A stretch of 64,000 bases of DNA from an uncultured Alphaproteobacteria bacterium (GTDB lineage: Bacteria > Pseudomonadota > Alphaproteobacteria > GCA-2731375): contig CATOSZ010000003.1 in the NCBI GenBank assembly GCA_951812805.1, forward strand, positions 1,380,557 to 1,444,556, given 5' to 3'. The notes beneath the pieces are model-generated. The model had not been told where the DNA came from, made no database searches, and saw only the letters and a list, made by a program, of their open reading frames with translations. Shown in pieces: positions 19,227 through 59,602 of the stretch. The translations under genes were made by a program, and so were the position numbers. Positions within the stretch are counted from its first letter, which is position 1. Every line of letters starts with the position of its first letter.

Positions 19227-20722
19227 GCGACGGCCTCCCCGGCAACGCACAGCGTCTCATAGCGCTTGCAGTCCGCTTCGGGCCGCAAGGTCAGTTGCGG
19301 ATAGGCGTGGCTCTCGCCCCATGGCGCGATGACCGGCTCCACCAGTTGGTTGATCAGATTGATGATGGCCGGAAGGCGCAGCGTGTTCTGCTCCACGGCC
19401 AGTTCACAGGCTATCTCGACCACCTCGATCCCGTGATCCTGGGCCAGCAGGAGCAGATCGACAAACTCCCGGTCCCCGCCTTTGCCGGCCATGTAATGCG
19501 CCCTGACCCGGTGCATCGCCTCAGGCAATTGCCAACCCACAAAGGGCGCGCCATCTCTCAGCGCGCCGGGCTTGCGGTCGAGTAGGGGCAGGTAATGCCA
19601 GGGCTCGAAATAGCTGGCGTTGCGGGTAAAGCGGCGCTTGTGCTCGGCAATCACATTCTGCCCTGACACAACCACGATCCGGTCCGCATAGGCGCGCAGA
19701 GAGACAAGCTCCCCGGCGAACCGGGAGGGGACGCTATAGCGATTGGTGGCATATTGGACCAGACAGGTAGAGCGGACACGAGCGGCCTTCTCAACATAGC
19801 CGTCAAAAGCCCGGCCCAGGGGACGCAGTTCGGCGCACTCGTCTGCGAACACGTCCGAGATCTTGCGATCCGATTGTTCGGGGTGGGCGCGATTCGCCAA
19901 TTCCTCGCAGCGCAGACGCAACCAGCCGTTCAGCGCATCCAGATCGTCAAAGGCGGGCTTGGGCGCAAACAGCTGTCCCCGCAGGAACCCAACCTGGTTC
20001 TCAATCTGACCCTTCTCCCACCCCGCCGCGGGTGTGCAAGCAACCGGTTCCATCACATAGTGGTTCATCAACGCCAGAAAGCGCGGATGGAACACACGGT
20101 CCTTAGAGCGCGAAACATAGGTTACCATCGTCTTGGGGTTGTCGATGATCACCCGGCGCGGTACGCCGCCATAGAAAGACATCGCCCGTGCAAAGGCGTC
20201 CAGCACCATCTCCTGAGATTCGCTGGGATAGGCAACAACAAAGGGCTTGCGGCTATGACATAGGCGGAAGTGGGCAACCTTTACCTTCTGCTCGACACCG
20301 CCCAGGACAGCGTATTCCGTGCTCCAGTCAAACTGGAGCGCGTCACCTGCCGTAAAGTGCAACGGAATGAACGCATCCCCCGATCCGGCGCCAGAACGCT
20401 TCAGGTCGCGGACAAACCTCTGAACCGTCGAGTAGGATCCGCTATAGCCTTCCGACACAAGCTGCTCATAAAGCTTCTTGGCCGTCCGGCGCTCACGGCG
20501 CGGGCGCCCCAGGTCCTGCTCAAAGAGCGCCCGAAGCCGGCTGGCGAAGCCATCGCTAAGCTTACGCCGGACGGGTGAAACGCGCCGCTGATAGCTCGGT
20601 GGATCGCCGTCCTTCAGATACTTCTTAATCGTGTTCCGCGACAAACCAGTCTGACGAGATACAGATCGGATACTCCGACCCTCCCGTAATATCCAACGTC
20701 GGATCTTCAATACGCTTTCCAT
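19223..20722 (-). CDS. istA: IS21 transposase IstA (copy 1)
   Basis: From [10 protein letters not shown] the 499-residue protein has an N-terminal helix-turn-helix ([21 protein letters not shown]) and a DDE integrase core with [23 protein letters not shown] and [16 protein letters not shown] nine codons upstream (20749) is an alternative start. A hairpin CCGCAC-N6-GTGCGG (20744-20761) precedes the GGAGG and could limit translation. Because the right tip of this copy is detached, the gene is intact but the element cannot move normally. Confidence 0.95.
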
Positions 20723-20765
20723 CAATACCACCTGCTCTTTCCTCCGCACTGTTCCGTGCGGATGC

Positions 20766-24889: not shown

Positions 24890-25881
24890 AGTCCGGCCTC
24901 CAGGGCGAAGCAGGCGGCCTGCTGGCCGCCATCCAATGACGTCGGTGTCGGCATGCGCGAATCGCAAATCCCGGGGACCACTTTCGGGCAACGGGTGTGG
25001 AAGACGCAGCCGCTGGGCCGATCAAGCGGGCTTGGAATGTCGCCGGGCACGGCTGTCAGCGGCTCGTCCAGCGCCTCAAGCTTCGGCAGCGCATTCAACA
25101 ATCCGCTCGTATAGGGATGGGCGGGCCGACGGATGACCTCGTGCACGGTGCCGGTTTCGACCGTCTTGCCGAGATACATGACGGCGACCCGGTCGGCGGT
25201 CTGAGCGATGACGCCGAGATCGTGGGTGATGAACAGGATCGCCATGCCGAACTCGGCCACCAGGTCGCGCATCAGGTCCAGCACTTGCGCCTGAATGGTG
25301 ACGTCCAGGGCCGTGGTCGGCTCATCCGCGATCAGCAGCTTGGGTTGAGTCGACAGCGCCATGGCGATCATTGCGCGCTGGCGCATGCCGCCCGAGAATT
25401 CAAAGGCGTACTGGCCGAAGCGCCGGGCCGCGTCGGAAATGCCGACCTTGGCCAGCATCTCGATGGCATGCTCCTTCGCCTCGGCCTTGTTCATGTTGGT
25501 GTGCAGGCGGAGCTGTTCGACCATCTGATCGCCGATGGTGATCGCCGGGGCGAAGCTGGCCATCGGCTCCTGGAAGATCATCGAAACCAGCCCGCCGCGC
25601 ACCGGCACGAGGTCCTTCGGCTTCCTGAGTGAGAGGACATCGATGTCGTTCTCATCGTCCTGGAAGCGGATGCGGCTTTCCTCGCCGTAGAGGGTGTTGC
25701 CGCCGTTGAGCTGCATCAGGGACTTTGCCGTGACGGACTTGCCGGAGCCGCTTTCGCCGACGAGGCCCAGCACCTCGCCCGCGCCGATCTCGAAATTGAC
25801 GCCGTCAACCGCGGTGACCAGCCCCTCGTCGGTGCGGAACTGGACGGTGAGGTCCTGCACGGAAATCAGCGGGGTCGCCAT
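24886..25881 (-). CDS. Peptide/opine ABC transporter ATPase, DppD-like
   Basis: 331 residues. Walker A GESGSGKSVTAKSL, Q-loop FQEPMASFAPAITI, signature FSGGMRQRAMIAMAL and Walker B LIADEPTTALD are all intact, followed by the oligopeptide-type C-terminal domain (CVFHTRCPK). It pairs with the DppF-like subunit to drive import through the two permeases. The ATG overlaps the permease TGA in TGATG, which suggests coupled translation. Confidence 0.93.
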   Translation of the reverse strand: MATPLISVQDLTVQFRTDEGLVTAVDGVNFEIGAGEVLGLVGESGSGKSVTAKSLMQLNGGNTLYGEESRIRFQDDENDIDVLSLRKPKDLVPVRGGLVSMIFQEPMASFAPAITIGDQMVEQLRLHTNMNKAEAKEHAIEMLAKVGISDAARRFGQYAFEFSGGMRQRAMIAMALSTQPKLLIADEPTTALDVTIQAQVLDLMRDLVAEFGMAILFITHDLGVIAQTADRVAVMYLGKTVETGTVHEVIRRPAHPYTSGLLNALPKLEALDEPLTAVPGDIPSPLDRPSGCVFHTRCPKVVPGICDSRMPTPTSLDGGQQAACFALEAGL

Positions 25882-27074
25882 CAGCGGTTGTCCGAATAAG
25901 GATCGGCCGCATCGCGCAGGCCGTCCCCGACGAAGACGAAAGCCAGCACCAGGGCGATGAAGAACAGCACGGGGATGAAATACCACTGATAGTTCAGCAG
26001 CACGTCGGCCTTGGTCACGTTCTGCAGCATGACGCCAAGGGAATTGACCGGGTCCTTGAGACCGAGGCCGATGAAGCTCAATGCCGTCTCGGAGAGAACC
26101 ATGTAGGGGAAGCTGATCACCAGATCGACGATGATGTAGCTGGAGAAGCTCGGCAGCAGATGGTGGCGGATGACATGTGCGGGCGAGGCGCCGCAAAGCC
26201 GGGCCGCGAGCACATACTCCTGGTTCCGCTCGCTCAGCAGGTGGGTGCGGACGCGGCGCGCCAATGTCGGCCAGCCAATGAGACCGAGGATGATGGAGAT
26301 GAAGAAGAAGCGCATCTCCGCGCTCCACTCATCCGGTACGAAGGCCGCAAGCGCCATGAACAGGGGAATGGCCGGCACGGTTCGGACCGCGTCGGTGATC
26401 ATCTGCACCACGCCGTCAAAGGTGCCGCCGAAATACCCGCTGAAACCCCCGATGACGAGCGCCAGGACAAAGCTGATCAGTACGCCGATGGTGCCCACCG
26501 CCAAACTTGTCCAGACCGCATGCAGGGTCCGGCTGAAGATATCCTTGCCGCCGGCGTCGGTGCCGAAAATATGGATGCCGCCCTTGTCGATGCCAAACAG
26601 ATGGGTCGTGAACTTGAACCCGGGAATATCGATGTCGAAGGCCTTGCCCGGCATGTCGAGCTCGAACGACAGCAGGCGATACTCCCAGCCCGTGGCGAAG
26701 AGCTGGACATAGCGCCGCTTGTCCGTATTGACCTTGGTTACCCAGCGGAAATTCGTCTTGATCGATCGTGTGCGCTCCAGCGTGTGCAGGAACGGGCGCC
26801 AAGAGCAGCCCTTGTGGTCGCAGAACATGGGGATCTGCGGCGCGCCGTTCTGGTAGTCCTTGTCGCGGCCGGCGATAGTCGGATCGTAGGGCGAGAGGAA
26901 GGGCGCGGTGAGACCGATCACGATCATCAGGATCAGCACGGTGCCGGCGAACATCGCCGTGCGGTTGCGCCGAAAGCGGGCCCAGATCAGCTGGGTCTGA
27001 CTCGCCGTGAAGTAGGCTTCCTTGCGCTGCTGGTCCGTGCTCGTGGCGTCGGAGGCGTCGTTGGTCTGGCTCAT
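25881..27074 (-). CDS. Peptide/opine ABC transporter permease, DppC-like
   Basis: 397 residues: an N-terminal membrane segment (FAGTVLILMIVIGLTAPFLSPYDP), a long extracytoplasmic insertion (about 70-170), then five membrane segments and the EAA-type cytoplasmic loop (EYVLAARLCGASPAHVIRHHLLP). The large insertion sets it apart from short DppC and is typical of the subfamily that works with large family 5 binding proteins. The start overlaps the previous gene's stop in ATGA. Confidence 0.92.
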   Translation of the reverse strand: MSQTNDASDATSTDQQRKEAYFTASQTQLIWARFRRNRTAMFAGTVLILMIVIGLTAPFLSPYDPTIAGRDKDYQNGAPQIPMFCDHKGCSWRPFLHTLERTRSIKTNFRWVTKVNTDKRRYVQLFATGWEYRLLSFELDMPGKAFDIDIPGFKFTTHLFGIDKGGIHIFGTDAGGKDIFSRTLHAVWTSLAVGTIGVLISFVLALVIGGFSGYFGGTFDGVVQMITDAVRTVPAIPLFMALAAFVPDEWSAEMRFFFISIILGLIGWPTLARRVRTHLLSERNQEYVLAARLCGASPAHVIRHHLLPSFSSYIIVDLVISFPYMVLSETALSFIGLGLKDPVNSLGVMLQNVTKADVLLNYQWYFIPVLFFIALVLAFVFVGDGLRDAADPYSDNR

Positions 27075-28090
27075 GCCTGCGCCCTCCCCATCACGCCGCT
27101 GCGCACCCGGGGGTCCAGCAGGGCAAGTAGCACGTCGCTCATGAAGTTGAGGGCGACGATGGATGCGGTCAGCATGAAGATGATGGCCCCGGCAAGCTGC
27201 TGATCGTTCGAGCGGGCCAGCGCTTCGAGCAGGAGTGCGCCCGCCTCCGTCAGGGTCAGGATAATGGCGACGATTGGCAGTTCATTGAACACGCGGTTCA
27301 AATCGAAGCCGACCGAATTGACGATCGGCCCAAGCGCATGGCGGGCCGGATAGCGCCAGAGCAGCCGGCCGCCTCTGATGCCGCGCGCGCGGGCCGCGGT
27401 GACGTAGAGCTTACCGTTCTCGTCACTCATCAGCGCGCGTACGGTTTGCAGGGCGAAAGCCGTCGCCGACCAGCCGAGGATGAAGATGGGCAGGCAGGCG
27501 CGAGAGAGGAAGTCGATAATCCGGTCCACAGACCAGGGGGCGTCGCGGTACTCCTTGGAAAAGAGGCCCGTCAGACTGTCCCCGAAGACCACGGTGGAGA
27601 ACAGCATGATCATCAGCGCCAGCAGGAAGTTCGGCATCGCCAGGCCGAGATAGGAGAGCAGGCGCAGACTGTTGTTCAGCACCGGCGAGCGGGACGAGGC
27701 GGAGATAATGCCGATCGGAATGGCGATGACGTAGGCCAGCAGCAGGGCGGTGAAGCAGATCCCGATGGAGAGCCACATTTTCTGGCCAAGCAACTGGTTG
27801 ATGTTGACGCGCAGGATGCAGCTGTCGCCGAAGTCGCCCCGGAAGAAGACATTGGCGAGCCAGCTTCCCCAACGCACGACAAACGGTCGATCCAGGCCGA
27901 GGCGCGCTTCCTCCGCCTTGATGTCCTGTACGGTGATCTGTTCGCCTTGCGTGTTCTTGAACGCCAGATAGCGTTCGGCGCAGTTCCCCGGCACCATCTC
28001 CATCAACGAAAAGACGATGAAGGACACGATGACGAGCGTGACGACCGCGAGGCCGGCGCGCTTCAGGATGAATTCGGCGAACTGCAGCAC
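27071..28090 (-). CDS. Peptide/opine ABC transporter permease, DppB-like
   Basis: 339 residues with the N-terminal signature LKRAGLAVVTLVIVSFIVFSLMEMVPG, six predicted membrane segments, and the EAA loop around YVTAARARGIRGGRLLWRYPARHALGP. It forms the channel with the DppC-like subunit. It follows the binding-protein gene after 93 nt that contain a strong UUCG hairpin. Confidence 0.92.
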   Translation of the reverse strand: MLQFAEFILKRAGLAVVTLVIVSFIVFSLMEMVPGNCAERYLAFKNTQGEQITVQDIKAEEARLGLDRPFVVRWGSWLANVFFRGDFGDSCILRVNINQLLGQKMWLSIGICFTALLLAYVIAIPIGIISASSRSPVLNNSLRLLSYLGLAMPNFLLALMIMLFSTVVFGDSLTGLFSKEYRDAPWSVDRIIDFLSRACLPIFILGWSATAFALQTVRALMSDENGKLYVTAARARGIRGGRLLWRYPARHALGPIVNSVGFDLNRVFNELPIVAIILTLTEAGALLLEALARSNDQQLAGAIIFMLTASIVALNFMSDVLLALLDPRVRSGVMGRAQA

Positions 28091-28121
28091 GTCACAAAGC
28101 CCGGTGAACGCGAACGACGGC

Positions 28122-28145
28122 GGGCCGGACCCGAAGGCCCGGCCC
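28122..28145 (-). promoter_or_regulatory. Intercistronic UUCG hairpin between binding protein and permease
   Basis: On the minus strand GGGCCGGGCC-TTCG-GGTCCGGCCC forms a 10-bp stem (one G-U pair) capped by a UUCG tetraloop. No T run follows, so it is not a classical terminator. Such hairpins often protect the upstream message or partly stop transcription, which would favour excess binding protein; this role is inferred. Confidence 0.7.
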
Positions 28146-28183
28146 TGTTACATGCGCCGACCGTCGTACGGGCCGGTTGGGTC

Positions 28184-30229
28184 CTACTCGTCCAGATACC
28201 ACTGATGCGTCCGGTATGGGTAGGTCCGGTAGTACTCGTAGGACCAGGTCTTGAACTCGACGAAGTTCTTCAGGGCGTTGCGATGATAGATCGGATTGGG
28301 CGCTTGCACCGTGCCGATGAACAGCAGGTTCTCCACCATGTTCTTGACCAGTCGGGCACCAAGTTTGTTCGACTTGTCCGAGCCGACCGTGGTCGACTGG
28401 AAGGCATCGATATCGTCCTTGATCTCTATGACATAAGCCGGCGGTTTCACGCCCGCCTTGCCATCGGTCTCGAGGTATTCGCCCCACAGCATGCCCGTGC
28501 GGTGGGCGAAGTAGTTTTCAAACGGCGCCACGAATAGCTCGTTCGTGCCGAGCACGATGGCGAGCGGCTGGCCCTTCTTCCAGGCGCCAACGTCGAGCTG
28601 GTTGGCCGACTGGGCCGAGCGATACTCGTCCGGCGTGACCTCCTTGGCCGTAGTCTTGACGCCGACATTGGTCCAGTGCTGGGCGACCAGTTCGACCAGG
28701 GGGCCGTCGATGCCCTGCGTCGCAAACTGGATGTTCAGCACGAACTTGTCGCCGTTCGGCAACTCGCGCGCGCCGTCGCCGTCCTTGTCGCTAACGCCGA
28801 TCTCGTCCAGCAGCTTCTTGGCGAGGGCAGGATCGAATTGGGCGAAATGTTGCGACCATTTGGGATCGACGAATTCCGGCTGGGGTGAGAAAGGCACATA
28901 CTGCTTGGCCTGACCCAGACCGAAATAGGCCGTCTCGTTGATCTCCGCCCGGTTGATCGCGACCGACATGGCCTGGCGGAACTTCAGGTTACCGAAGACC
29001 TTGCGCTTCTCCATGTCCGTGGAGGTCACGTTGAAGGAGAACACCGGCATCGAAATGGTCGGCTTCAGGTCGACCTTGTAGTCGCCCTTCTCCTGACCGT
29101 CGAGAAGGATCGGTGCGCTCGGCAGCTGGACCGACTGCGACTTGTAGTCGACCTCGGCATTGACCAGCTTCAGGATGCGAACTTCGTTCTCGTTGATGTA
29201 GAGCTCGTCCTGCTCATTGATGTAGGGCAGTTGATTGCCGGCCGTATCGACGATGAAGAAGTAGGGATTGGCCACGAGATGGCGGCCTTCCGTCGTGTCC
29301 TTGGTCAGGATGTAACTTTCGAGCGTCGGCATCGTATCCGCCGGCAGCTTCGCGGCCTTGTCAGGATGCGCCAGCAGCGGCGTCGGCGTATCCGTCCAGT
29401 CGGAGTTGCCGTAGTAGGCTTGGATCACCTCATAGCCATTCTTGAAGCCGGCCGCCTGCGCCAGCTTGTCGGCATCCTTGTTTATCCCAGGGTGATAGCG
29501 GCCGAGGAAGTGTTTGGGCTGGAAGCCCTGCGCATAGGAGGTCGCGAAATGGGCCAGCAGCCCCGGCTTTGGCGACGGCAGGTTGAAGCGGACCGTCTGC
29601 GGGTCGACGACGTCGACCGTCATCGGTTTGCCGGCAACGAGGACGTATTCCTTCGCCTTCTTGATGACGTTGGTGTCGAGCGCCAGGTTGTCGTACCAGA
29701 ATTTCACGTCGTCCGCGGTGAACAGCGCGCCATCGGACCACTTGTGCCCCTTGCGCAGGATAAACGTGAGCTGCGTGAAATCGTCGTTCCACTTCCAGCC
29801 CTTGGCGACATGCGGCACGATCGTCTTCAAATCGTCCGCATAGCGCACCAGATTGACGTGGCGGGTCGAAAGGAAGTCCGAGGTGCCGGCTTCCGTCGCG
29901 TTGGAGAGGACGTCGAACGTGCCGCCATACTTGCCGATTGACTCATAAGGCGCATAGACCAGCGGTTCTTCTGGCAGGCGTTCGGCCAGCAGAGGCAAGG
30001 CCTTATTGCCGCGAATTTTACCGTTCAGGGCCTTGATCGACGGGTTCTCGGCGAACGCCATTTTGCAGCTGGCAAGCTGTTCAAACTCCGCCTGCTCGTA
30101 CTGTTGCGGAAACGCACCTGGCTTGACGCCTTTCATGTCCTGCATCGTCACGGCCGGACACGCGGCCAGCGCGACGGCGCTCGTCATGAAACATGCGGCG
30201 CCTGCCGCATAGAAAAATAGTTTGTACAT
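28184..30229 (-). CDS. Family 5 extracellular solute-binding protein of ABC importer
   Basis: This 681-residue protein captures the substrate for the downstream importer. The signal sequence MYKLFFYAAGAACFMTSAVA ends with LAAC (residues 21-24), a possible lipobox, so it may be a lipoprotein. SBP_bac_5 features include KGWKWNDDFTQLTF, RKGHKWSDGALFTADDVKFW and FRQAMSVAINRAEINE. It ends with YRTYPYRTHQWYLDE, typical of a long alphaproteobacterial subgroup. An excellent SD (GGGAGG, 5 nt spacing) precedes the ATG. First gene of the operon; IS630 sits about 90 bp upstream, so the native promoter may be altered. Substrate unknown. Confidence 0.92.
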   Translation of the reverse strand: MYKLFFYAAGAACFMTSAVALAACPAVTMQDMKGVKPGAFPQQYEQAEFEQLASCKMAFAENPSIKALNGKIRGNKALPLLAERLPEEPLVYAPYESIGKYGGTFDVLSNATEAGTSDFLSTRHVNLVRYADDLKTIVPHVAKGWKWNDDFTQLTFILRKGHKWSDGALFTADDVKFWYDNLALDTNVIKKAKEYVLVAGKPMTVDVVDPQTVRFNLPSPKPGLLAHFATSYAQGFQPKHFLGRYHPGINKDADKLAQAAGFKNGYEVIQAYYGNSDWTDTPTPLLAHPDKAAKLPADTMPTLESYILTKDTTEGRHLVANPYFFIVDTAGNQLPYINEQDELYINENEVRILKLVNAEVDYKSQSVQLPSAPILLDGQEKGDYKVDLKPTISMPVFSFNVTSTDMEKRKVFGNLKFRQAMSVAINRAEINETAYFGLGQAKQYVPFSPQPEFVDPKWSQHFAQFDPALAKKLLDEIGVSDKDGDGARELPNGDKFVLNIQFATQGIDGPLVELVAQHWTNVGVKTTAKEVTPDEYRSAQSANQLDVGAWKKGQPLAIVLGTNELFVAPFENYFAHRTGMLWGEYLETDGKAGVKPPAYVIEIKDDIDAFQSTTVGSDKSNKLGARLVKNMVENLLFIGTVQAPNPIYHRNALKNFVEFKTWSYEYYRTYPYRTHQWYLDE

Positions 30230-42037: not shown

Positions 42038-43114
42038 ATGCCCCCCACCGCCGCCCGAATACACGAGGTTCCCGACGATCCGTTGGCCGCGATCGACTAC
42101 TGCTTCGAGCAGGGCTGGACCGACGGCCTGCCGGTGGTGCCGCCCGACGTCGGGCGGGTCGCCGCAATGATGGCCTTCGAGGGTCGGCCGGCCGAAGCGG
42201 TGCTGGCGGCGCATCCGGCGACGGGCCTCGAGTGCACGGTGCACGCGGCGGCCGTCAATGCGGTGATGGCGGGGTGCAAGGCGGAGTATTTTCCCGTCGT
42301 CGTCGCGGCGCTGGAAGCGATGGCCGAGCCCGGGTTTAACTTTCACGGCTCCACCGCCAGTACCGGCGGCTCGGCCCCTTTGCTGGTCGTCAGCGGCCCG
42401 GTGATCGACGACATCCAGATGAACGCCGACGTCAATCTGTTCGGCCCCGGCAACCGGGCCAACAACACCATCGGACGGGCGATCCGGTTGATCCTGATGA
42501 ACGTCTTCCAGATGGTTCCCGGCCTCTCCGACAAATCGACCCAGGGGCAGCCGGCGAAGTTCAGTTTCTGCATCGCCGAACGCCAGCGCGGCAATCCCTG
42601 GCCGCTGCTGGTCGAAGACCTGGATTATCCGCCGGGTGTCTCGAGCGTCACGGTGTTCGCCGGCGGCGGTTTCTGCAATGTTGAGAACCACGGCGGCAAC
42701 ACGCCGGAACAGGTGCTGGGCAGCGTCGCCGACGCGATGGCGAATTACGGTTGCATCACGCTCGGCCAATCGGTCGTTGTGCTGGCGCCCGAGCACGTCC
42801 GCATCGTCGCCGGTGCCGGCTGGTCGAAGGCCGAGGTGCGCGAATACCTGTTCGCCCGGGCGGCCCGCCCGGTCGACGGCATGCGGGCCGTCGGCAAGTA
42901 CCGCCAGCGCGACTACGACCGCCAGCACGGATCCGACGCCCACCCCCTCGTCGCCGACGCGATGATGCACCGCGGCCTGACGCCGGACGACATCCTGGTC
43001 GTCATGGGCGGCGGCGATGCCGGCGGGCATTCCTGCTTCATCCCTTCCTGGAGCCGCGCCCGCAGCTCGATCATGCAGTCGAAGCCGATCGGCGTCTGTA
43101 TCGACTGCGATTGA
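42038..43114 (+). CDS. Conserved protein linked to UGSC selenoprotein (GWTDGLPVVPP family)
   Basis: 358 residues, cytoplasmic, no signal. Conserved-looking blocks are EQGWTDGLPVVPPD near the start, FNFHGSTASTGGSAPLLVVSGPV, NANxxLFGPGNRANNTIGRA-like sequence in the centre, and a C-terminal GVCIDCD with a C-x-x-C pair. I do not know its biochemical role. SD AAGGAG is 9 nt before the ATG. It ends 13 nt before the selenoprotein gene, so the two are one operon; a shared redox or transfer function is inferred from that linkage alone. Confidence 0.75.
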   Translation: MPPTAARIHEVPDDPLAAIDYCFEQGWTDGLPVVPPDVGRVAAMMAFEGRPAEAVLAAHPATGLECTVHAAAVNAVMAGCKAEYFPVVVAALEAMAEPGFNFHGSTASTGGSAPLLVVSGPVIDDIQMNADVNLFGPGNRANNTIGRAIRLILMNVFQMVPGLSDKSTQGQPAKFSFCIAERQRGNPWPLLVEDLDYPPGVSSVTVFAGGGFCNVENHGGNTPEQVLGSVADAMANYGCITLGQSVVVLAPEHVRIVAGAGWSKAEVREYLFARAARPVDGMRAVGKYRQRDYDRQHGSDAHPLVADAMMHRGLTPDDILVVMGGGDAGGHSCFIPSWSRARSSIMQSKPIGVCIDCD

Positions 43115-43127
43115 ACGGAGAGAGCCG

Positions 43128-43649
43128 ATGCAACTCTATGATCCCACCGTCGCCGGACCGGAGCGGCACTTCGTCCGTGCCGACACGCTGACAGGCCTGG
43201 ACGGCTGCACCATCGGCCTGCTGGAGAACGGCAAGCTGAACGCGGAAGCGATGCTGCGGGAAACGGCGGCTTTGTTCCAGGCGCGCCACGGCTGCCGGAT
43301 CGAACCGCTGTTTTCCAAGTCGAACGCCAGTGCCCCGGCGCCGGCCGAAACCCTGGCCGAGGCGGCGTCCCGGGTCGATTTCCTGATCACCGGGCTCGGC
43401 GATTGAGGCAGTTGCTCGACGTGCAGTTTGCATGACGGCATCAGCTTCGAGCAGCTCGGCAAACGCGCCATCGTGCTCTGTACGGAACCCTTCGAGGTAA
43501 CGGCGCGCAACATCGCCCGCATGCTGGGCCTGCCCGACTACCCCTTCGTCCGCCTGGAACATCCCATCGGCAGCCGGACGGCCCCGGAAATCAGGGACCT
43601 GGCGACGGTCGCCTACGACCAGGCCCTGCCGATCCTGTTGGAAGGCTAG
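43128..43649 (+). CDS. UGSC-motif selenoprotein (in-frame UGA = Sec93)
   Basis: The frame from ATG 43128 (SD GGAG 7 nt upstream) reads 92 codons to TGA at 43404-43406 and continues without change as UGSCSTCSLHDGISFEQL to TAG at 43647-43649, 173 residues in all. The U-G-S-C motif after LITGLGD and the family features TIGLLENGKLNAEAML and VLCTEPFEVTARNIARMLGLPDYPFV match the known UGSC (seleno)protein family. A hairpin fitting a bacterial SECIS follows the UGA (43416-43438). A thioredoxin-like redox use of Sec93/Cys96 is inferred; function is not established. The sel genes needed for Sec insertion are not in the window. If UGA stopped translation, the conserved half would be lost. Confidence 0.9.
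43416..43438 (+). promoter_or_regulatory. Candidate bacterial SECIS hairpin
   Basis: CGTGCA-GTT-TGCATG (43420-43434) forms a 6-bp stem with a 3-nt loop starting with G, 19 nt after the UGA. After an A-A mismatch the stem extends by CG/CG pairs (43417-43418 with 43436-43437). Loop G and spacing fit the general rules for bSECIS elements read by SelB. Confidence 0.72.
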
Positions 43650-43825
43650 AGGACGAGCTTGATCAACTCGTAAGGCCAGATGATGGCGGCGAGGAAGGAT
43701 TGCTCGAAGGTTTCCATGTCGGACCACGAGGTCTTGCGGATCTCGTTGAACTTGACCAGGAACGTGCCGAGCGCGCCGAGCAGGTAGACAAAGCCGGCGA
43801 TCAACCACTTCGTTTTGCTGTCCAT
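43646..43825 (-). CDS. Small membrane protein, 59 aa
   Basis: Reads MDSKTKWLIAGFVYLLGALG and then TFLVKFNEIRKTSWSDMETFEQSFLAAIIWPYELIKLVL in two parts. One membrane helix (about 8-25) and a C-terminal amphipathic or hydrophobic stretch. GGGGAG lies 6 nt before the ATG. Its TAG overlaps the TAG of the convergent selenoprotein gene. Family unknown. Confidence 0.7.
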   Translation of the reverse strand: MDSKTKWLIAGFVYLLGALGTFLVKFNEIRKTSWSDMETFEQSFLAAIIWPYELIKLVL

Positions 43826-43898
43826 TCCCGCTCCCCTTATTCACGACTCAGGACGGCACGCGCACCGGCGCATGCATCACGACGCACGCTTCCCCACC

Positions 43899-44393
43899 CT
43901 ATTGGTTCCGAATCACGTCTTGCAGAATGTCTAGCACAACTCCGGTGGCGGCTTCGACCAGAAGGACGTTGTTGTCGACGATGATGCGTTCCGTGCCGCG
44001 GGGTGGCGGGCCCAGGCGGTCGTCCAGGTCATAGGGCAGGTCCCGCTTGGCGAGGCCCGGCGGCAGAGTTCTGCGCTTCGCCAATCCGGGGGGCAGCGAC
44101 TTCCGTGTGGCGAGGCCGGGTGGCAGACCCTTTTTGCCGCCTTTGCCTTTGCCCTTCCCCTTGTGCTTGTGTTTCCGCTTGTGCCCGCGGTCGCTATCGC
44201 CATCGTGCGCCGGATACCCGAAATAGTCCTCGATGACCCGGCGTTCGACCGTCGAAAATACGATATCCAGCACCTCGTCCTGGCTTAGGCTGGAGGACGT
44301 GCCTTGTGCCTGGGCCGGCATCGCCAGCAACCCGCCACAGATCAAGCCGCCGACGACGAGCAGCGGTGCCAAGTGTCTCGAAAACGACGTCAT
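43899..44393 (-). CDS. Secreted CigR-like protein with LPPGLAKR repeats
   Basis: From MTSFSRHLAP the 164-residue protein has a signal peptide (cleavage near PAQA-QGT), a conserved N-domain (LSQDEVLDIVFSTVERRVIEDYFGY), a Lys/Gly/His-rich spacer, three tandem LPPGLA repeats (KGLPPGLATR, KSLPPGLAKR, RTLPPGLAKR) and a C-terminal RcnB/CigR-like strand region (VDNNVLLVEAATGVVLDIL). The repeats are typical of the CigR family of periplasmic proteins. SD AAGGA, 8 nt before this ATG, favours it over upstream starts. Divergent from the kinase gene at 44563. Confidence 0.82.
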   Translation of the reverse strand: MTSFSRHLAPLLVVGGLICGGLLAMPAQAQGTSSSLSQDEVLDIVFSTVERRVIEDYFGYPAHDGDSDRGHKRKHKHKGKGKGKGGKKGLPPGLATRKSLPPGLAKRRTLPPGLAKRDLPYDLDDRLGPPPRGTERIIVDNNVLLVEAATGVVLDILQDVIRNQ

Positions 44394-44562
44394 ATTCGGA
44401 TCCTTCCTCATCCCCAGCTCGACGCCACCATAGCGAACAATGGGCCGGCGGGCTGTAGCCGTCGTCACTATCGCCGACGACGTTAACCATTGTCACACCC
44501 TTGTCAGGCCAAATGGCCGCCGTACCGCCGCCACCCGGCGGGGAGAAGGTATCGGGACGGCT

Positions 44563-46544: not shown

Positions 46545-49500
46545 CTACTCCGCGGCGCGGGCCAGCGGCGCATCGCCACGCCAAACGGCCGTCAGTCGCT
46601 CCCACTCCGCCCGGGCAGCCTCGACGTTCGCCTGCTTGACGTGGCCGAAACCGCGAATCGTCGCCGGCACTTCGGCGATGGCAATGGCGATGACGTGGTT
46701 TTCCATGGTCAAATCGTCCAACAATCCGGCGACGCGCGCTTCGTAGTCCGTGACGAGGGCGCGCTCTTCCCGCCGCTCCGCACTTCGGCCGAAGAGGTCG
46801 AACGGTCCGCCCCGCAGACCCTTCAGTCCGGCGAGCAGGCGTAGCGCGGGGAAGATCCAGGGGCCGAACGTCCGCTTGGCGATGCGCCCGGTCACCGGGT
46901 CGGGACGGGAGAGGAAGGGCGGCGCCAGCAGCAGCTCCAGCCGCTCGACGCCCTCGAAGTTCGCCTCGATCCGGGCCCGGAAGGCGGGATCGGAGTAGAG
47001 CCGGGCGACCTCGTACTCGTCCTTGTAGGCCATCAGCTTGTAGAGATTGCGGGCGACCGTCGTCGCCAGGGGGCCGGCCGCGCCGAGGCTCTCGGCTTCC
47101 CGTGCGCTCACCCGGCGGACCAGCGCCTCGTAGCGGGCGGCATAGGCCTCGTCCTGATAGGCGACCAAATCGGCGCGGCGCGCGGCCAGGATCCCGTCGA
47201 GGCCTTCCGGTACCGGCGCGGGGCCGTCCAGCAGGGCGTCGACGGCGGCGCGGTCTTGCGCGGTGCGCCGGCCCCAGAGAAACGCCTGCTTGTTCATCTC
47301 GATCGCCAGGCCGTTCAATTCGATGGCCCGCAGGATCGCCGCCGCACCGATCGGGATCGCTCCCTTCTGGTAGGCGAAGCCCAGCATGAAGAGGTTGGTG
47401 GCGATCGAATCACCGAGCAGCGCCGTCGCCAGGCGGGTCGCGTCCAACACGTCGAGCCGGTCGGGATCCGCCTCCTCGGCGATGCGGCGGTTGATATCGT
47501 CGGTCGGGAAGGCCAGGTCCGGGTCGAGGGCGAAGTGACCGGTGATCGACGGCTGAGAGTTCACCACGACCCGGGTCCGCGCCGGATCGATGACGGCGAG
47601 CGCCAGCTCACCCCCCGTCACCAGGCTATCGCAGCCGAGCAGCAGGTCCGCCGAGCCGACGCCGAGACGCAGCGCGCCGATCATCCCCTCGTCCCGGGCG
47701 ATCCGCACATGGCTGGTGACGGCCCCGCCTTTTTGCGCCATGCCGAACTGGTCGATGGTGGAGAAGGCCTTGCCCTCCATGTGCGCCGCCATGGTCAGTA
47801 GGGCGGCGATGGTGACGACGCCGGTGCCGCCGATGCCGGTGACCAGCAGGCTGTAGGGCCGGTCCTCCGGCAGGGCGGCCAGCGTCGGCTCCGGCAGCAG
47901 GGACAGCGCGCGTGGCACCTCGCGGCCGCCGCCGTCCTTGCGCGGCGTGGCGCCAATGACGTTGACGAAGCTCGGACAGAAGCCCTCGGCGCAGGAATAG
48001 TCCTTGTTGCAAGAGGACTGGTCGATCATCCGCTTGCGCCCGAGCGGGGTTTCCAACGGCAGCACGGAAAGGCAGTTCGAGGTCTGGGAGCAATCGCCGC
48101 AGCCCTCGCACACCGCCTCGTTGATGAACAGGCGGCGGGGCGGGTCGATCATCGCGCCCCGCTTGCGCCGGCGCCGTTTCTCCGCCGCACAGGTCTGGTC
48201 GTAGATCAGCACGGTGACGCCGGGGATGTCGCGCAGCTCGCGTTGCACCCGGTCCAGCTCGCGGCGGTGTTCGAAGCCGGTGCCGGGGGCGAAGGCGGCA
48301 CCGAGGGGGTACTTGTCCGGCTCGTCCGAGACGACGACGATCCGCTTCACGCCTTCCGCCGCGACCTGGCGGGAGATCGACATGGGCGTCAACTCGCCGT
48401 CCACCGGCTGGCCGCCGGTCATCGCCACCGCGTCGTTGAACAGGATCTTGTAGGTGATGTTCACATTCGCCGCGACACAGGCGCGGATCGCCAGCAGGCC
48501 CGAATGGAAATAGGTCCCGTCGCCCAGGTTCTGGAAGACGTGCTTGTTCTCCGTGAAGGGCGCGTTGCCGATCCAGTTGGCGCCCTCGCCGCCCATGTGG
48601 GTGTGGGCGCCGGTATCGCGGTTCATGTAGGTCGACATGTAGTGGCAGCCGACGCCGCCCTGGGCCTGGCTGCCCTCCGGCACCCGGGTCGAGCTGTTGT
48701 GCGGACAGCCCGAACAGAAATAGGGCATGCGGGCGATCGACATCGCCTCGCGCTTCGCCAGGCGCGCTGCCTTCGCCTCGAGAAATTCGAGGCGGGCGGC
48801 GATCCGCTCGTCGCCGTGAAAATGGGCGATGCGGGGGGCGAGCGCCCGGGCGATCTCCTCCGCGCCGAACTCGCCGCATTCCGGCAACAGCAGGGCGCCC
48901 GTCTCGTCGCGCCGGCCGATGACGCGGGGCCGGCGGCCGTCCGGCAAGTCGTAGAGCGCGTCGCGCACCCGGCTCTCCAGGAAGCGGCGTTTCTCCTCGA
49001 CGACGAAGATCTCCTCCAGCCCGTCGGCGAAGTTGCGCACGGTCTCCCCGTCGAAGGGGAAGGGCATGCCGATCTTCAGGAAGGAAATGCCGATGCCGGC
49101 GGCCTTCGCGTCGTCGAGGCCGAATTCCTTCAGGGCCTGGCGGGTGTCCATCGCCGCTTTGCCGGAGGAGATGATGCCGTAGCGCCGGTCCGGTCCGTCG
49201 ATGATCCGCCGGTTGATCTCGTTCGCCCGCGCGAAGGCCAGCGCGGCGGGCAGCTTGTGGTTCCGCAGGCGCGGTTCCTGCTGCTGCCAGACGTCGCCGG
49301 CACGGATCGAGACGCCGTCGGCGGGAAAATCGAAATTGGGATGGACGATACGCATCCGCTCGGGATCGCAATCGACGGGGGCGGCGGCGTCCACCGTCTC
49401 CGCCATCATCTTGAAGCCGACCCAGGCGCCGGAGAAGCGCGACAGCTCCCACCCCAGCACGCCGTAATCGAGGATCTCCTGCACGCTGGCGGGATAGAGG

Positions 49501-50015
49501 CAGGGCATCAGCAGGTCCGAGAACATGGTCTCGGAGGCGGCCGGCACGTCGGTCGACTTCATCGCCGGATCGTCGCCGACCGCAGCCAGTACGCCGCCAT
49601 GGCGCGAGGTGCCCCCGAGATTGGCATGCCGAATGGCGTCGATCGAGCGATCGAGCCCCGGACCCTTGCCGTACCACATGGCGAAGACGCCGTCGTGGCG
49701 GGCACGGGGGTACATGTTGGCCTGCTGGCTGCCCCAGCATGCCGTTGCGGCCAGATCCTCGTTCACGCCCGGCTGGAAGTGGATCGCGTCGTCCAGAACG
49801 AAGCGTTTCGCGCGCCAGATCTCCTTGTCGACATTGTGCATGGGCGAGCCGCGATAGCCCGAGATGAAGCAGGCGGTATCGAGCCCCCGTGCCACATCGC
49901 GCCGGCGCTGGTTCATCGCCAGGCGCAGTAGCGCCTGCGACCCGGTGAGATACACGACCCCCTGCTCGGCGGCGTATTTGTCGTCGAGGTCGACCGGTTT
50001 CAGGGCAATGTTCAT
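46545..50015 (-). CDS. Indolepyruvate ferredoxin oxidoreductase, fused IorA-IorB type
   Basis: 1156 residues. Oxidatively decarboxylates arylpyruvates (indolepyruvate, phenylpyruvate) to aryl-acetyl-CoA using thiamine diphosphate and ferredoxin. Order: pyrimidine-binding domain (GSQALLRLAMNQRRRD; YRGSPMHNVDKEIW), TPP-binding domain around MGGEGANWIGNAPF and LFNDAVAMTGGQPVDG, a 4Fe-4S ferredoxin-like segment (CEGCGDCSQTSNC, CNKDYSCAEGFCPSF), then the gamma domain (TGIGGTGVVTIAALLTMAA) and a C-terminal DUF6537-like region. Full length, single gene, with no neighbours of the pathway. Confidence 0.95.
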   Translation of the reverse strand: MNIALKPVDLDDKYAAEQGVVYLTGSQALLRLAMNQRRRDVARGLDTACFISGYRGSPMHNVDKEIWRAKRFVLDDAIHFQPGVNEDLAATACWGSQQANMYPRARHDGVFAMWYGKGPGLDRSIDAIRHANLGGTSRHGGVLAAVGDDPAMKSTDVPAASETMFSDLLMPCLYPASVQEILDYGVLGWELSRFSGAWVGFKMMAETVDAAAPVDCDPERMRIVHPNFDFPADGVSIRAGDVWQQQEPRLRNHKLPAALAFARANEINRRIIDGPDRRYGIISSGKAAMDTRQALKEFGLDDAKAAGIGISFLKIGMPFPFDGETVRNFADGLEEIFVVEEKRRFLESRVRDALYDLPDGRRPRVIGRRDETGALLLPECGEFGAEEIARALAPRIAHFHGDERIAARLEFLEAKAARLAKREAMSIARMPYFCSGCPHNSSTRVPEGSQAQGGVGCHYMSTYMNRDTGAHTHMGGEGANWIGNAPFTENKHVFQNLGDGTYFHSGLLAIRACVAANVNITYKILFNDAVAMTGGQPVDGELTPMSISRQVAAEGVKRIVVVSDEPDKYPLGAAFAPGTGFEHRRELDRVQRELRDIPGVTVLIYDQTCAAEKRRRRKRGAMIDPPRRLFINEAVCEGCGDCSQTSNCLSVLPLETPLGRKRMIDQSSCNKDYSCAEGFCPSFVNVIGATPRKDGGGREVPRALSLLPEPTLAALPEDRPYSLLVTGIGGTGVVTIAALLTMAAHMEGKAFSTIDQFGMAQKGGAVTSHVRIARDEGMIGALRLGVGSADLLLGCDSLVTGGELALAVIDPARTRVVVNSQPSITGHFALDPDLAFPTDDINRRIAEEADPDRLDVLDATRLATALLGDSIATNLFMLGFAYQKGAIPIGAAAILRAIELNGLAIEMNKQAFLWGRRTAQDRAAVDALLDGPAPVPEGLDGILAARRADLVAYQDEAYAARYEALVRRVSAREAESLGAAGPLATTVARNLYKLMAYKDEYEVARLYSDPAFRARIEANFEGVERLELLLAPPFLSRPDPVTGRIAKRTFGPWIFPALRLLAGLKGLRGGPFDLFGRSAERREERALVTDYEARVAGLLDDLTMENHVIAIAIAEVPATIRGFGHVKQANVEAARAEWERLTAVWRGDAPLARAAE

Positions 50016-50922: not shown

Positions 50923-51267
50923 TGTCAATCAGCATTTAATTCTGACCCCCTATCGGCGTGCAAAATTGACCCCCCCCCTTGCTTCGACGGAGGTTGTCCC
51001 GGTAGTCCACGGGAGGGCCCCGCGCGGCTTCGTGTAGCGCTTTGCGTTACGCGGAGCGAAGCCGCGTGGGAGGGGCCTGTGGGCCCACCGGGACAACCGG
51101 GCCGGCGGCGGAACGTGGGGATCAGGTGGGGTTCTTGAAGTGGCAATGAGCTTTTGAAGTAGTGTCCAGACTGTTCTGCAAGTTTGTCATGGCTGCCGAT
51201 GAGGGCCACCGGCATGCCTGGCGCGGAGATTTCGATTGCTCGGAGCGCCAGGCATGCCGAGCCGCCG

Positions 51268-51396
51268 TCAGGCGGCTTTCTGGATGCGTTCGCTTTTGCT
51301 CTCCTTGAGATGGATCATGTTGAGCTAGCGGTTGGCATCCAGCCAGTCCTCATGGATTTCGATCGCGAGAGCCCGGACCAGCCGGAGGCAGCTCAT
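51268..51396 (-). pseudogene. Fossil IS256-type transposase C-terminus inside IS21 (copy 2)
   Basis: Same sequence as 18209-18337, with the in-frame TAG at the position of the conserved Tyr. Its presence in every IS21 copy shows it was captured before the element spread. Confidence 0.65.
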
Positions 51397-51553
51397 CCAC
51401 CCCATCGGCCCGGACTTGTGCCCCAGCTACGAAACCCCTTTTGCAGAACAATCTGTACAGGACCCGTTTTGATTTGCCCGCCTTTGCGATGAAAGCCCCC
51501 AGGCTGATTGGCTCCATATAGCGGATCAGCCTGGGGCTTTGCTTACAGGGCGG

Positions 51554-52285
51554 CTACTTTTGTCGTCGCTGTTTGCTTTGTGCGAAGCGGTAAGACATGT
51601 TGCCTGTTTCGATGATTGCGCAGTGATGCGTTACACGATCCAGCAACGCGGTTGTCATTTTTGCATCTCCGAAGACGGAGACCCATTCCCCGAACTCCAG
51701 ATTGGTGGTGATGATGACGCTGGTCTTCTCATAGAGTTTGCTGATCAGGTGGAACAAGAGCGCACCGCCGGATTTGGGGAATGGGATATAGCCCAGTTCG
51801 TCGATGATGACGCAATCCATGGCCGTCAGTTGCCGGATGATCTTGCCGGCGTTGCCTTCGGCCTGTTCCTTGATCAGCGCATTGATCAGATCGACGGCGT
51901 TGAAGAAACGGACCTTCTTTCCCTGATTGATCAACAGCGTCCCCAGAGCAATGGCGATGTGGGTTTTGCCCGTACCGGTTCCGCCCACCAGAATGAGGTT
52001 GTGGGCCTCCTGGGTGAACTGCCCTGAGCAGAAGGGGTCGATTTGCGCTTGGGTGACGGCGGCTAGGCCGTAATCGAAAGTGGCGAAGTCCTTATGGTGG
52101 GGGAACTTCGAGGCCCGCATTTGGTGCTGGATAGAGCGCACCCGGCGCTCTACAGTCTCGGCGTCGATCAGTTGCTTTATCGCAGTGGTCAGACTTGGCG
52201 GCTTGCGCGCGGCCAGCAAAGCTTCGGCGCAAGCCGCCATTCCATACAGCCTCAGGGCGATCAGTTGGTCTATCAAAGCTTTCAT
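51554..52285 (-). CDS. istB: IS21 helper ATPase IstB (copy 2)
   Basis: 243-residue AAA+ ATPase with Walker [10 protein letters not shown] and Walker B VIIDELGY, identical in translation to the other two copies. The ATG overlaps the istA stop (ATGA). Confidence 0.95.
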
Positions 52286-53781
52286 GCGACGGCCTCCCCG
52301 GCAACGCACAGCGTCTCATAGCGCTTGCAGTCCGCTTCGGGCCGCAAGGTCAGTTGCGGATAGGCGTGGCTCTCGCCCCATGGCGCGATGACCGGCTCCA
52401 CCAGTTGGTTGATCAGATTGATGATGGCCGGAAGGCGCAGCGTGTTCTGCTCCACGGCCAGTTCACAGGCTATCTCGACCACCTCGATCCCGTGATCCTG
52501 GGCCAGCAGGAGCAGATCGACAAACTCCCGGTCCCCGCCTTTGCCGGCCATGTAATGCGCCCTGACCCGGTGCATCGCCTCAGGCAATTGCCAACCCACA
52601 AAGGGCGCGCCATCTCTCAGCGCGCCGGGCTTGCGGTCGAGTAGGGGCAGGTAATGCCAGGGCTCGAAATAGCTGGCGTTGCGGGTAAAGCGGCGCTTGT
52701 GCTCGGCAATCACATTCTGCCCTGACACAACCACGATCCGGTCCGCATAGGCGCGCAGAGAGACAAGCTCCCCGGCGAACCGGGAGGGGACGCTATAGCG
52801 ATTGGTGGCATATTGGACCAGACAGGTAGAGCGGACACGAGCGGCCTTCTCAACATAGCCGTCAAAAGCCCGGCCCAGGGGACGCAGTTCGGCGCACTCG
52901 TCTGCGAACACGTCCGAGATCTTGCGATCCGATTGTTCGGGGTGGGCGCGATTCGCCAATTCCTCGCAGCGCAGACGCAACCAGCCGTTCAGCGCATCCA
53001 GATCGTCAAAGGCGGGCTTGGGCGCAAACAGCTGTCCCCGCAGGAACCCAACCTGGTTCTCAATCTGACCCTTCTCCCACCCCGCCGCGGGTGTGCAAGC
53101 AACCGGTTCCATCACATAGTGGTTCATCAACGCCAGAAAGCGCGGATGGAACACACGGTCCTTAGAGCGCGAAACATAGGTTACCATCGTCTTGGGGTTG
53201 TCGATGATCACCCGGCGCGGTACGCCGCCATAGAAAGACATCGCCCGTGCAAAGGCGTCCAGCACCATCTCCTGAGATTCGCTGGGATAGGCAACAACAA
53301 AGGGCTTGCGGCTATGACATAGGCGGAAGTGGGCAACCTTTACCTTCTGCTCGACACCGCCCAGGACAGCGTATTCCGTGCTCCAGTCAAACTGGAGCGC
53401 GTCACCTGCCGTAAAGTGCAACGGAATGAACGCATCCCCCGATCCGGCGCCAGAACGCTTCAGGTCGCGGACAAACCTCTGAACCGTCGAGTAGGATCCG
53501 CTATAGCCTTCCGACACAAGCTGCTCATAAAGCTTCTTGGCCGTCCGGCGCTCACGGCGCGGGCGCCCCAGGTCCTGCTCAAAGAGCGCCCGAAGCCGGC
53601 TGGCGAAGCCATCGCTAAGCTTACGCCGGACGGGTGAAACGCGCCGCTGATAGCTCGGTGGATCGCCGTCCTTCAGATACTTCTTAATCGTGTTCCGCGA
53701 CAAACCAGTCTGACGAGATACAGATCGGATACTCCGACCCTCCCGTAATATCCAACGTCGGATCTTCAATACGCTTTCCAT
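52282..53781 (-). CDS. istA: IS21 transposase IstA (copy 2)
   Basis: 499-residue DDE transposase ([25 protein letters not shown]) with N-terminal helix-turn-helix, identical in translation to the other copies. In this copy both element ends are present, so it should be able to transpose. Confidence 0.95.
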
Positions 53782-53943
53782 CAATACCACCTGCTCTTTC
53801 CTCCGCACTGTTCCGTGCGGATGCTAGCGTTCCAGGTGGGTCAATTCTTACCGCTCATAACCCACCAAAGTGGGTCAGTTTTGCATGCCGATTCACACCC
53901 CGGACCAAGCCAGCAAGATCCGATAAGGAGAAGAAATCGACCC

Positions 53944-56526: not shown

Positions 56527-56743
56527 GGCCCCCCAGCCGCGCATTCCGCCCGGCATTCTTCTCGTAATTCACCGCCCACCACTTCCCGGCCCGTACAGGC
56601 CCGCCGGCGGGCATTTCGCCGTCGGCGTGTGAATCGGCATGCAAAACTGACCCACTTTGGTGGGTTATGAGCGGTAAGAATTGACCCACCTGGAACGCTA
56701 GCATCCGCACGGAACAGTGCGGAGGAAAGAGCAGGTGGTATTG

Positions 56744-58243
56744 ATGGAAAGCGTATTGAAGATCCGACGTTGGATATTACGGGAGGGTCGGAGTATCCGA
56801 TCTGTATCTCGTCAGACTGGTTTGTCGCGGAACACGATTAAGAAGTATCTGAAGGACGGCGATCCACCGAGCTATCAGCGGCGCGTTTCACCCGTCCGGC
56901 GTAAGCTTAGCGATGGCTTCGCCAGCCGGCTTCGGGCGCTCTTTGAGCAGGACCTGGGGCGCCCGCGCCGTGAGCGCCGGACGGCCAAGAAGCTTTATGA
57001 GCAGCTTGTGTCGGAAGGCTATAGCGGATCCTACTCGACGGTTCAGAGGTTTGTCCGCGACCTGAAGCGTTCTGGCGCCGGATCGGGGGATGCGTTCATT
57101 CCGTTGCACTTTACGGCAGGTGACGCGCTCCAGTTTGACTGGAGCACGGAATACGCTGTCCTGGGCGGTGTCGAGCAGAAGGTAAAGGTTGCCCACTTCC
57201 GCCTATGTCATAGCCGCAAGCCCTTTGTTGTTGCCTATCCCAGCGAATCTCAGGAGATGGTGCTGGACGCCTTTGCACGGGCGATGTCTTTCTATGGCGG
57301 CGTACCGCGCCGGGTGATCATCGACAACCCCAAGACGATGGTAACCTATGTTTCGCGCTCTAAGGACCGTGTGTTCCATCCGCGCTTTCTGGCGTTGATG
57401 AACCACTATGTGATGGAACCGGTTGCTTGCACACCCGCGGCGGGGTGGGAGAAGGGTCAGATTGAGAACCAGGTTGGGTTCCTGCGGGGACAGCTGTTTG
57501 CGCCCAAGCCCGCCTTTGACGATCTGGATGCGCTGAACGGCTGGTTGCGTCTGCGCTGCGAGGAATTGGCGAATCGCGCCCACCCCGAACAATCGGATCG
57601 CAAGATCTCGGACGTGTTCGCAGACGAGTGCGCCGAACTGCGTCCCCTGGGCCGGGCTTTTGACGGCTATGTTGAGAAGGCCGCTCGTGTCCGCTCTACC
57701 TGTCTGGTCCAATATGCCACCAATCGCTATAGCGTCCCCTCCCGGTTCGCCGGGGAGCTTGTCTCTCTGCGCGCCTATGCGGACCGGATCGTGGTTGTGT
57801 CAGGGCAGAATGTGATTGCCGAGCACAAGCGCCGCTTTACCCGCAACGCCAGCTATTTCGAGCCCTGGCATTACCTGCCCCTACTCGACCGCAAGCCCGG
57901 CGCGCTGAGAGATGGCGCGCCCTTTGTGGGTTGGCAATTGCCTGAGGCGATGCACCGGGTCAGGGCGCATTACATGGCCGGCAAAGGCGGGGACCGGGAG
58001 TTTGTCGATCTGCTCCTGCTGGCCCAGGATCACGGGATCGAGGTGGTCGAGATAGCCTGTGAACTGGCCGTGGAGCAGAACACGCTGCGCCTTCCGGCCA
58101 TCATCAATCTGATCAACCAACTGGTGGAGCCGGTCATCGCGCCATGGGGCGAGAGCCACGCCTATCCGCAACTGACCTTGCGGCCCGAAGCGGACTGCAA
58201 GCGCTATGAGACGCTGTGCGTTGCCGGGGAGGCCGTCGCATGA
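56744..58243 (+). CDS. istA: IS21 transposase IstA (copy 3)
   Basis: Identical in translation to the other IstA copies: helix-turn-helix ([17 protein letters not shown]) and DDE core. The hairpin CCGCAC-N6-GTGCGG before GGAGG is at 56705-56722. GTG at 56717 is the alternative start. Confidence 0.95.
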
Positions 58244-58971
58244 AAGCTTTGATAGACCAACTGATCGCCCTGAGGCTGTATGGAATGGCGGCTTGCGCCG
58301 AAGCTTTGCTGGCCGCGCGCAAGCCGCCAAGTCTGACCACTGCGATAAAGCAACTGATCGACGCCGAGACTGTAGAGCGCCGGGTGCGCTCTATCCAGCA
58401 CCAAATGCGGGCCTCGAAGTTCCCCCACCATAAGGACTTCGCCACTTTCGATTACGGCCTAGCCGCCGTCACCCAAGCGCAAATCGACCCCTTCTGCTCA
58501 GGGCAGTTCACCCAGGAGGCCCACAACCTCATTCTGGTGGGCGGAACCGGTACGGGCAAAACCCACATCGCCATTGCTCTGGGGACGCTGTTGATCAATC
58601 AGGGAAAGAAGGTCCGTTTCTTCAACGCCGTCGATCTGATCAATGCGCTGATCAAGGAACAGGCCGAAGGCAACGCCGGCAAGATCATCCGGCAACTGAC
58701 GGCCATGGATTGCGTCATCATCGACGAACTGGGCTATATCCCATTCCCCAAATCCGGCGGTGCGCTCTTGTTCCACCTGATCAGCAAACTCTATGAGAAG
58801 ACCAGCGTCATCATCACCACCAATCTGGAGTTCGGGGAATGGGTCTCCGTCTTCGGAGATGCAAAAATGACAACCGCGTTGCTGGATCGTGTAACGCATC
58901 ACTGCGCAATCATCGAAACAGGCAACATGTCTTACCGCTTCGCACAAAGCAAACAGCGACGACAAAAGTAG
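58240..58971 (+). CDS. istB: IS21 helper ATPase IstB (copy 3)
   Basis: AAA+ ATPase identical in translation to the other copies; ATGA overlap with istA. A hairpin follows at 58985-59033. Confidence 0.95.
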
Positions 58972-59128
58972 CCGCCCTGTAAGCAAAGCCCCAGGCTGAT
59001 CCGCTATATGGAGCCAATCAGCCTGGGGGCTTTCATCGCAAAGGCGGGCAAATCAAAACGGGTCCTGTACAGATTGTTCTGCAAAAGGGGTTTCGTAGCT
59101 GGGGCACAAGTCCGGGCCGATGGGGTGG

Positions 59129-59257
59129 ATGAGCTGCCTCCGGCTGGTCCGGGCTCTCGCGATCGAAATCCATGAGGACTGGCTGGATGCCAACCGCTAG
59201 CTCAACATGATCCATCTCAAGGAGAGCAAAAGCGAACGCATCCAGAAAGCCGCCTGA
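59129..59257 (+). pseudogene. Fossil IS256-type transposase C-terminus inside IS21 (copy 3)
   Basis: Third occurrence of the fragment at 18209-18337 and 51268-51396, with the same in-frame TAG. Confidence 0.65.
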
Positions 59258-59602
59258 CGGCGGCTCGGCATGCCTGGCGCTCCGAGCAATCGAAATCTCC
59301 GCGCCAGGCATGCCGGTGGCCCTCATCGGCAGCCATGACAAACTTGCAGAACAGTCTGGACACTACTTCAAAAGCTCATTGCCACTTCAAGAACCCCACC
59401 TGATCCCCACGTTCCGCCGCCGGCCCGGTTGTCCCGGTGGGCCCACAGGCCCCTCCCACGCGGCTTCGCTCCGCGTAACGCAAAGCGCTACACGAAGCCG
59501 CGCGGGGCCCTCCCGTGGACTACCGGGACAACCTCCGTCGAAGCAAGGGGGGGGGTCAATTTTGCACGCCGATAGGGGGTCAGAATTAAATGCTGATTGA
59601 CA

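Follow-up and report, generated by a model that had tools for sequence, protein, structure and literature searches.

Insertion of selenocysteine (Sec) directed by SelB and a SECIS hairpin is an established mechanism in bacteria. The UGSC selenoproteins were described in an ocean survey of 2008, which counted 255 forms with Sec and 21 forms with cysteine, all without a known domain, considered a thioredoxin (Trx)-like fold as "likely" and reported a fusion to a domain named "Unknown_1" (PMC2398784). In reviews published up to 2026, the function of the family is still given as not known (PMC13188914, PMC9312934, PMC9402790). One of these reviews also describes a UxxCxxC pattern that is known from GrdB (PMC13188914).

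Here, we analyzed a window of 64,000 nucleotides (the whole stretch of DNA under study), located on contig C3 of a 7.4-Mb alphaproteobacterial genome, in which a preliminary description had proposed a UGSC selenoprotein gene. Leaving the chemistry aside, we hold it for highly probable that the region corresponds to a two-gene unit made of a partner gene (42038-43114) followed by a UGSC selenoprotein gene (43128-43649).

Results

A UGSC gene interrupted by a single in-frame UGA

The frame at 43128-43649 on the forward strand encodes 173 residues, from an ATG at 43128 that is preceded by a ribosome-binding site read from the sequence (GGAGAGAG, 43117-43124) to a TAG stop at 43647-43649, and its only interruption is a TGA at 43404-43406. 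The protein reads ...GLGDUGSCSTCSLHD..., with Sec93 in the context ...VDFLITGLGD-U-GSCSTCSLHDGISFEQLGKRAIVLCTEPFEVTARNIARMLGLPDYPFVRLEHPIGS..., followed by Cys96 and also by Cys99. Thus, the frame does run on through the TGA as initially proposed, with a conserved downstream half, and translation placed U-G-S-C at the very residues (Sec93/Cys96) that had been announced.

The assignment to the UGSC family was also borne out, since the window protein matched PF24696 ("UGSC family") in Pfam over positions 2-170 of 172 (E 4e-45; 154.5 bits for a cut-off of 25 bits), while its match to the NCBIfam model NF041046 ("UGSC family (seleno)protein"; 120.6 bits, E 5.5e-35) was slightly under the curated cut-off of 125 that three other UGSC paralogues of the genome passed. 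A plain gene caller split the gene into a 92-residue protein and a fragment of ~73 residues, as had been anticipated for automatic annotation, so that standard gene callers would mis-annotate it as a truncated protein. Judged from its sequence, the window gene is an ordinary member of a long-known selenoprotein family of uncharacterised function. Among 84,980 species genomes scanned, at least 80 UGSC loci were found, the proteins being 55-79% identical to the window protein over the whole length, and the genome itself contains eight UGSC genes.

A predicted flavodoxin-like fold and a probable distant kinship with GrdB and PrdB

A structure model of the UGSC protein (pLDDT 91, pTM 0.87) displayed alternating strands and helices in a flavodoxin-like order, and placed Sec93 at the start of the helix that follows the second strand. 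Its best Foldseek match was a flavodoxin, the similarity being generic. In the methyl-coenzyme M reductase activation complex, chain H was also matched, but this match was rejected, as its Z score of 10.3 was little above that of unrelated flavodoxin-like folds. The protein is thereby predicted by modelling to be flavodoxin-like, and not Trx-like as guessed in 2008.

We also compared UGSC with GrdB and PrdB at the profile level, using, in place of clostridial sequences, a GrdB/PrdB profile made of PF07355-type genes of this and related genomes and, separately, the NCBIfam models. The hhalign comparison gave a score of 37.9 (E 1e-4), or 44.8 in the reverse direction (E 8.8e-6), and aligned Sec on Sec and the second cysteine on cysteine. 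The maximum reached in 200 column shuffles was 25.5, a reversed profile failed, and the score was still 35.3 once the UxxC motif had been masked. When unrelated profiles were compared as controls, the E values were 0.14 and 0.41, and the partner profile displayed no comparable link to GrdB/PrdB. Single UGSC members matched TIGR01917 (E 9.6e-4) and TIGR04483 (E 2.1e-3) over the Sec region, with best scores of 18.2 bits for a cut-off of 602 and of 17.6 bits for a cut-off of 300, respectively, and a Pfam scan of 22 UGSC members gave no match to PF07355. Altogether, these comparisons suggest that UGSC and the Sec domain of GrdB/PrdB are probably distant homologs, rather than members of one family, and part of the score could stem from a shared common fold.

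That UGSC would be a Trx-fold thiol oxidoreductase, as put forward in the ocean survey, agrees with its UxxC motif, which is typical of Trx-like selenoproteins, and with the fold deemed likely at that time (PMC2398784), but we consider it unlikely in view of the confident flavodoxin-like model with Sec at the start of a helix, the alignment of the UGSC profile with the Sec domain of GrdB/PrdB and the absence of any Trx family among Pfam matches even at E 5.

The genome also carries four GrdB/PrdB-like genes of the PF07355 type (L120 to L123, on contigs C8, C3, C3 and C2, respectively), the frames of which cross a TGA; these are, from their sequences, probably further selenoproteins. In these genes, the TGA is followed by PNC, PFC or PVC, and some related genomes carry five to eight such genes. 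Together with the eight UGSC genes, at least 12 genes of the genome would be read through such a UGA, which would make this a selenoprotein-rich bacterium.

A partner domain found in this genome only at UGSC genes

The partner gene (42038-43114, forward strand) encodes 358 residues from its ATG, in an ORF that is open from 41996, and its ordinary stop (TGA, 43112-43114) is found 13 nt before the start of the UGSC gene. A partner homolog is located upstream of UGSC in 79 of the 80 related loci listed, the 80th ending at a contig edge. The solute-binding protein and the histidine kinase encoded upstream were considered as members of the same unit and left out, because they are not conserved beside UGSC in these related loci.

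When the genome was searched with the partner profile, ten copies of the domain were found, all of them at UGSC genes, and each of the eight UGSC genes adjoins or is fused to this domain of ~350 residues. Its arrangement varies: the partner is directly upstream of UGSC at the window locus and at L112, it is fused behind UGSC at L111, L116 and L117 (with a second copy behind L117), and two copies are found downstream of UGSC at L115. At L113 and L114, it is again upstream, with an N-terminal segment carrying a CPTC motif and a VPT loop; this segment was not recognised by Pfam and seems, by motif only, to be thioredoxin-like. Near the UGSC paralogue of L111, on contig C4, there is a gene of the same length (532 aa) as the two IS66-type transposase genes of the window.

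No Pfam or NCBIfam family matched the partner, and nothing meaningful came out when PDB sequences were searched with the profiles of UGSC and of the partner. Structure matches of the partner model (pLDDT 87) to fumarase, cyclic amide hydrolases and chorismate mutase were weak or partial (TM ~0.25, Z below 7), and no function was drawn from them; more generally, the partner displayed no recognisable fold or catalytic signature, nor was a pyruvoyl processing site identified. The partner may correspond to the "Unknown_1" domain of 2008.

One could argue that the two proteins are merely operon neighbours and that UGSC alone is a general redox protein; yet in three paralogues UGSC and the partner domain are fused, in the others the domain lies next to UGSC, before or behind it, and the genome has no copy of it elsewhere, so that we regard mere proximity as improbable. 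UGSC and its partner very likely form an obligate functional pair.

A hairpin under constraint behind the UGA

An apical hairpin of the bacterial SECIS type (CGUGCA-GUU-UGCAUG) is found at 43420-43434 on the forward strand. It consists of 6 bp, including one G-U pair, and of a 3-nt loop that begins with G43426; when numbered from the U of the UGA, G43426 and U43427 occupy loop positions 23 and 24. The 6-bp hairpin with a G-starting loop is therefore as initially described, while the distance of 19 nt after the UGA that was given for it applies to the loop G, the stem beginning after 13 nt.

Folded as a single sequence, this hairpin is unremarkable (z -0.8 to -1.8). When the peptide was kept fixed and synonymous codons were drawn at random, the five lower pairs arose in ~25% of cases, so that the window sequence alone proves little. 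The comparison with relatives was much more informative. Among the matches listed, the serine codon was AGT in 80 of 80 relatives, vs 8% of serine codons overall, and the threonine codon was ACG in all 80, vs 39% of threonine codons elsewhere in these genes, with neighbouring codons varying among the same relatives. Leaving the TPAV sub-family aside, each of the 115 sequences forms the five lower pairs. Across 64 distinct sequences, 96.6% of cells were paired, and pair 21-27 displayed seven double changes, from C-G to G-C or G-U. The covariation score was 0.145, vs 0.082 for shuffled alignments (0 of 500 reached the observed value), and slid registers did not exceed 0.073. Since double changes occurred in only one of the six pairs, this covariation rests on few events, and the codon bias weighs more as an argument for a constraint on the hairpin.

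Paralogous sub-families behaved in a similar way. In those with tryptophan (TSWCIH and SSWSFH; TGG...TCC), the cysteine is replaced by tryptophan and the leucine by phenylalanine or isoleucine, with the stem still kept. Two more distant paralogues (TPAV) carry at this position a wholly different stem of 7 bp, the loop of which contains GU. A search of the whole genome with the SECIS pattern returned six UGSC genes and nothing else, with no hit in the backward control, and no Rfam family was matched within 42600-44400. The comparative signal from relatives is far above chance and argues that the hairpin is under constraint at the RNA level.

In the fdhF SECIS of E. coli (K-12 sequence), the loop G23-U24 and the U26GCA29 of the 3' arm are found at the same distances from the UGA as here. 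The E. coli element however has a bulged U17 and a loop of four, whereas the window hairpin has no U17 and a loop of three, and their lower stems are unlike each other.

Predicted reading of the UGA as selenocysteine

The codon at 43404-43406 that would encode Sec93 was a TGA in all 80 close relatives among the matches listed and a cysteine codon in none of them. Exactly one TGA was also found in each of the eight UGSC genes of this genome and, out of 41 related genomes, in every full-length UGSC match of the 16 that have such matches. Homologs ending at this position, which according to the preliminary description would speak against Sec, were found neither among the relatives listed, nor among the eight paralogues, nor in the 16 related genomes. 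The CGSC homologs with which it suggested an alignment were not encountered among more than 150 relatives examined.

That description had also predicted that the organism must have selA, selB, selC and selD, the absence of all sel genes being a reason to give up the proposal. We found selA (C17:62674-63789, 527 bits) with selB directly after it (C17:63834-65723, 447 bits), a tRNA-Sec with a TCA anticodon (C1:681477) and, close behind, 1.5 kb apart, selD (C1:682991, corresponding to L119:3810-6002; 285 bits). This selD is fused to a domain resembling pyridine-nucleotide-disulphide oxidoreductases (NDH-SelD type fusion). UGSC and SelB were found together in 15 of the 41 related genomes, UGSC alone in one (which is 77% complete), SelB alone in two and neither in 23 (Fisher p 3e-8, counted without correction for kinship). 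On contig C171 of the related genome G004, selB (27543-29429) and a UGSC gene (25579-26085) are ~1.5 kb apart.

A tRNA decoding UGA as tryptophan or cysteine, through a changed code or a suppressor, would likewise open the frame, but 24 of the 35 confident genes of the window end with TGA, more than with any other stop, the partner gene also ends with TGA, and the genome has tRNA-Sec, SelA, SelB and SelD, with a SECIS-type hairpin after the UGA, which makes such a reading very improbable. That the UGA would be a true stop, at the end of a 92-residue protein or of a decayed gene with a second short ORF behind it, reproduces the split made by a simple gene caller, but it is extremely improbable considering that the downstream half is kept as protein in the 80 relatives listed, always across a TGA, that the eight paralogues continue through their TGA in the same way, and that decay would neither strike the same codon each time nor preserve a hairpin behind it. 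We thus consider insertion of Sec at this UGA as practically certain.

Other features of the window

The window contains three identical stretches of 2,625 bp (18125-20749, 51184-53808 and, inverted, 56717-59341), each carrying an IS21-type transposase pair made of an IstA-like gene (rve/Mu-transpos_C_2) and IstB. Two identical IS66-type transposase genes are found at 892-2490 (reverse strand) and 20921-22519 (forward strand), and a DDE transposase-like gene is present in two identical copies located 1.6 kb apart on the reverse strand (3333-4634 and 6278-7579). Downstream of UGSC, repeated GC-rich units (gcgaggccgggtggcag-like) are found at ~44040-44160, within a short reverse-strand ORF (43899-44372). 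The reverse strand also encodes, at 46545-50015, a protein of 1,156 residues with TPP_enzyme_C, POR and DUF6537 domains, a layout like that of indolepyruvate-ferredoxin oxidoreductases.

Discussion

The most probable course of events is that, when a ribosome reaches the UGA at 43404-43406, SelB carrying Sec-tRNA(Sec) would be bound to the hairpin that follows (43420-43434) and Sec would be inserted in place of termination. Once in the protein, Sec93, predicted at the N-terminus of a helix that follows a central beta strand in the flavodoxin-like domain, could act as the nucleophile, with Cys96 as the resolving thiol, so that a Se-S bond would be formed and then re-reduced. Recycling might involve a thioredoxin-type donor, and two paralogues seem to have one fused to their partner.

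On the model of PrdB with PrdA and of GrdB with GrdE, a two-part reductase would be formed, in which UGSC carries out catalysis and the partner domain binds the substrate. Reductive cleavage of the GrdB/PrdB type is a possible chemistry, to which we give somewhat less than an even chance. We would propose, just as tentatively, that UGSC is the catalytic subunit of Sec-dependent reductases made of two parts, which would form an undescribed and widespread family with a distant kinship to glycine and D-proline reductases, and in which the partner of ~350 residues is the substrate-binding half and paralogues of one genome act on different substrates. The UGSC paralogues adjoin different catabolic genes (encoding a CoA-transferase, a methionine-synthase-like protein, an FAD oxidoreductase and an NMT1-type transporter), which, as a speculation, would fit different substrates. 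The strict pairing with the partner and the likely kinship with GrdB/PrdB provide a concrete and testable hypothesis for the function of UGSC.

Compared to the known UGSC family, nothing essential differs at this locus: sequence, length, UGSC motif, UGA codon and a SECIS behind the UGA are the same, and the window gene is a member. What our analyses appear to add to the knowledge of this family is a constant partner gene, the presence of several paralogues per genome, a flavodoxin-like fold prediction and a remote link to GrdB/PrdB. This last likeness is found at the profile level only, below all curated cut-offs, and the UGSC partner is without a known family. GrdB and PrdB are known from amino-acid-fermenting clostridia, whereas the UGSC hosts described here are alphaproteobacteria and gammaproteobacteria. 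Nevertheless, UGSC has in common with GrdB/GrdF/GrdH and PrdB (PF07355, TIGR01917, TIGR01918, TIGR04483) a UxxC motif, Sec aligned on Sec and a separate larger partner; the domain layout ends in a similar manner, in an HPIG / FPLG turn, and the UGSCSTC of the window protein fits the UxxCxxC pattern of GrdB.
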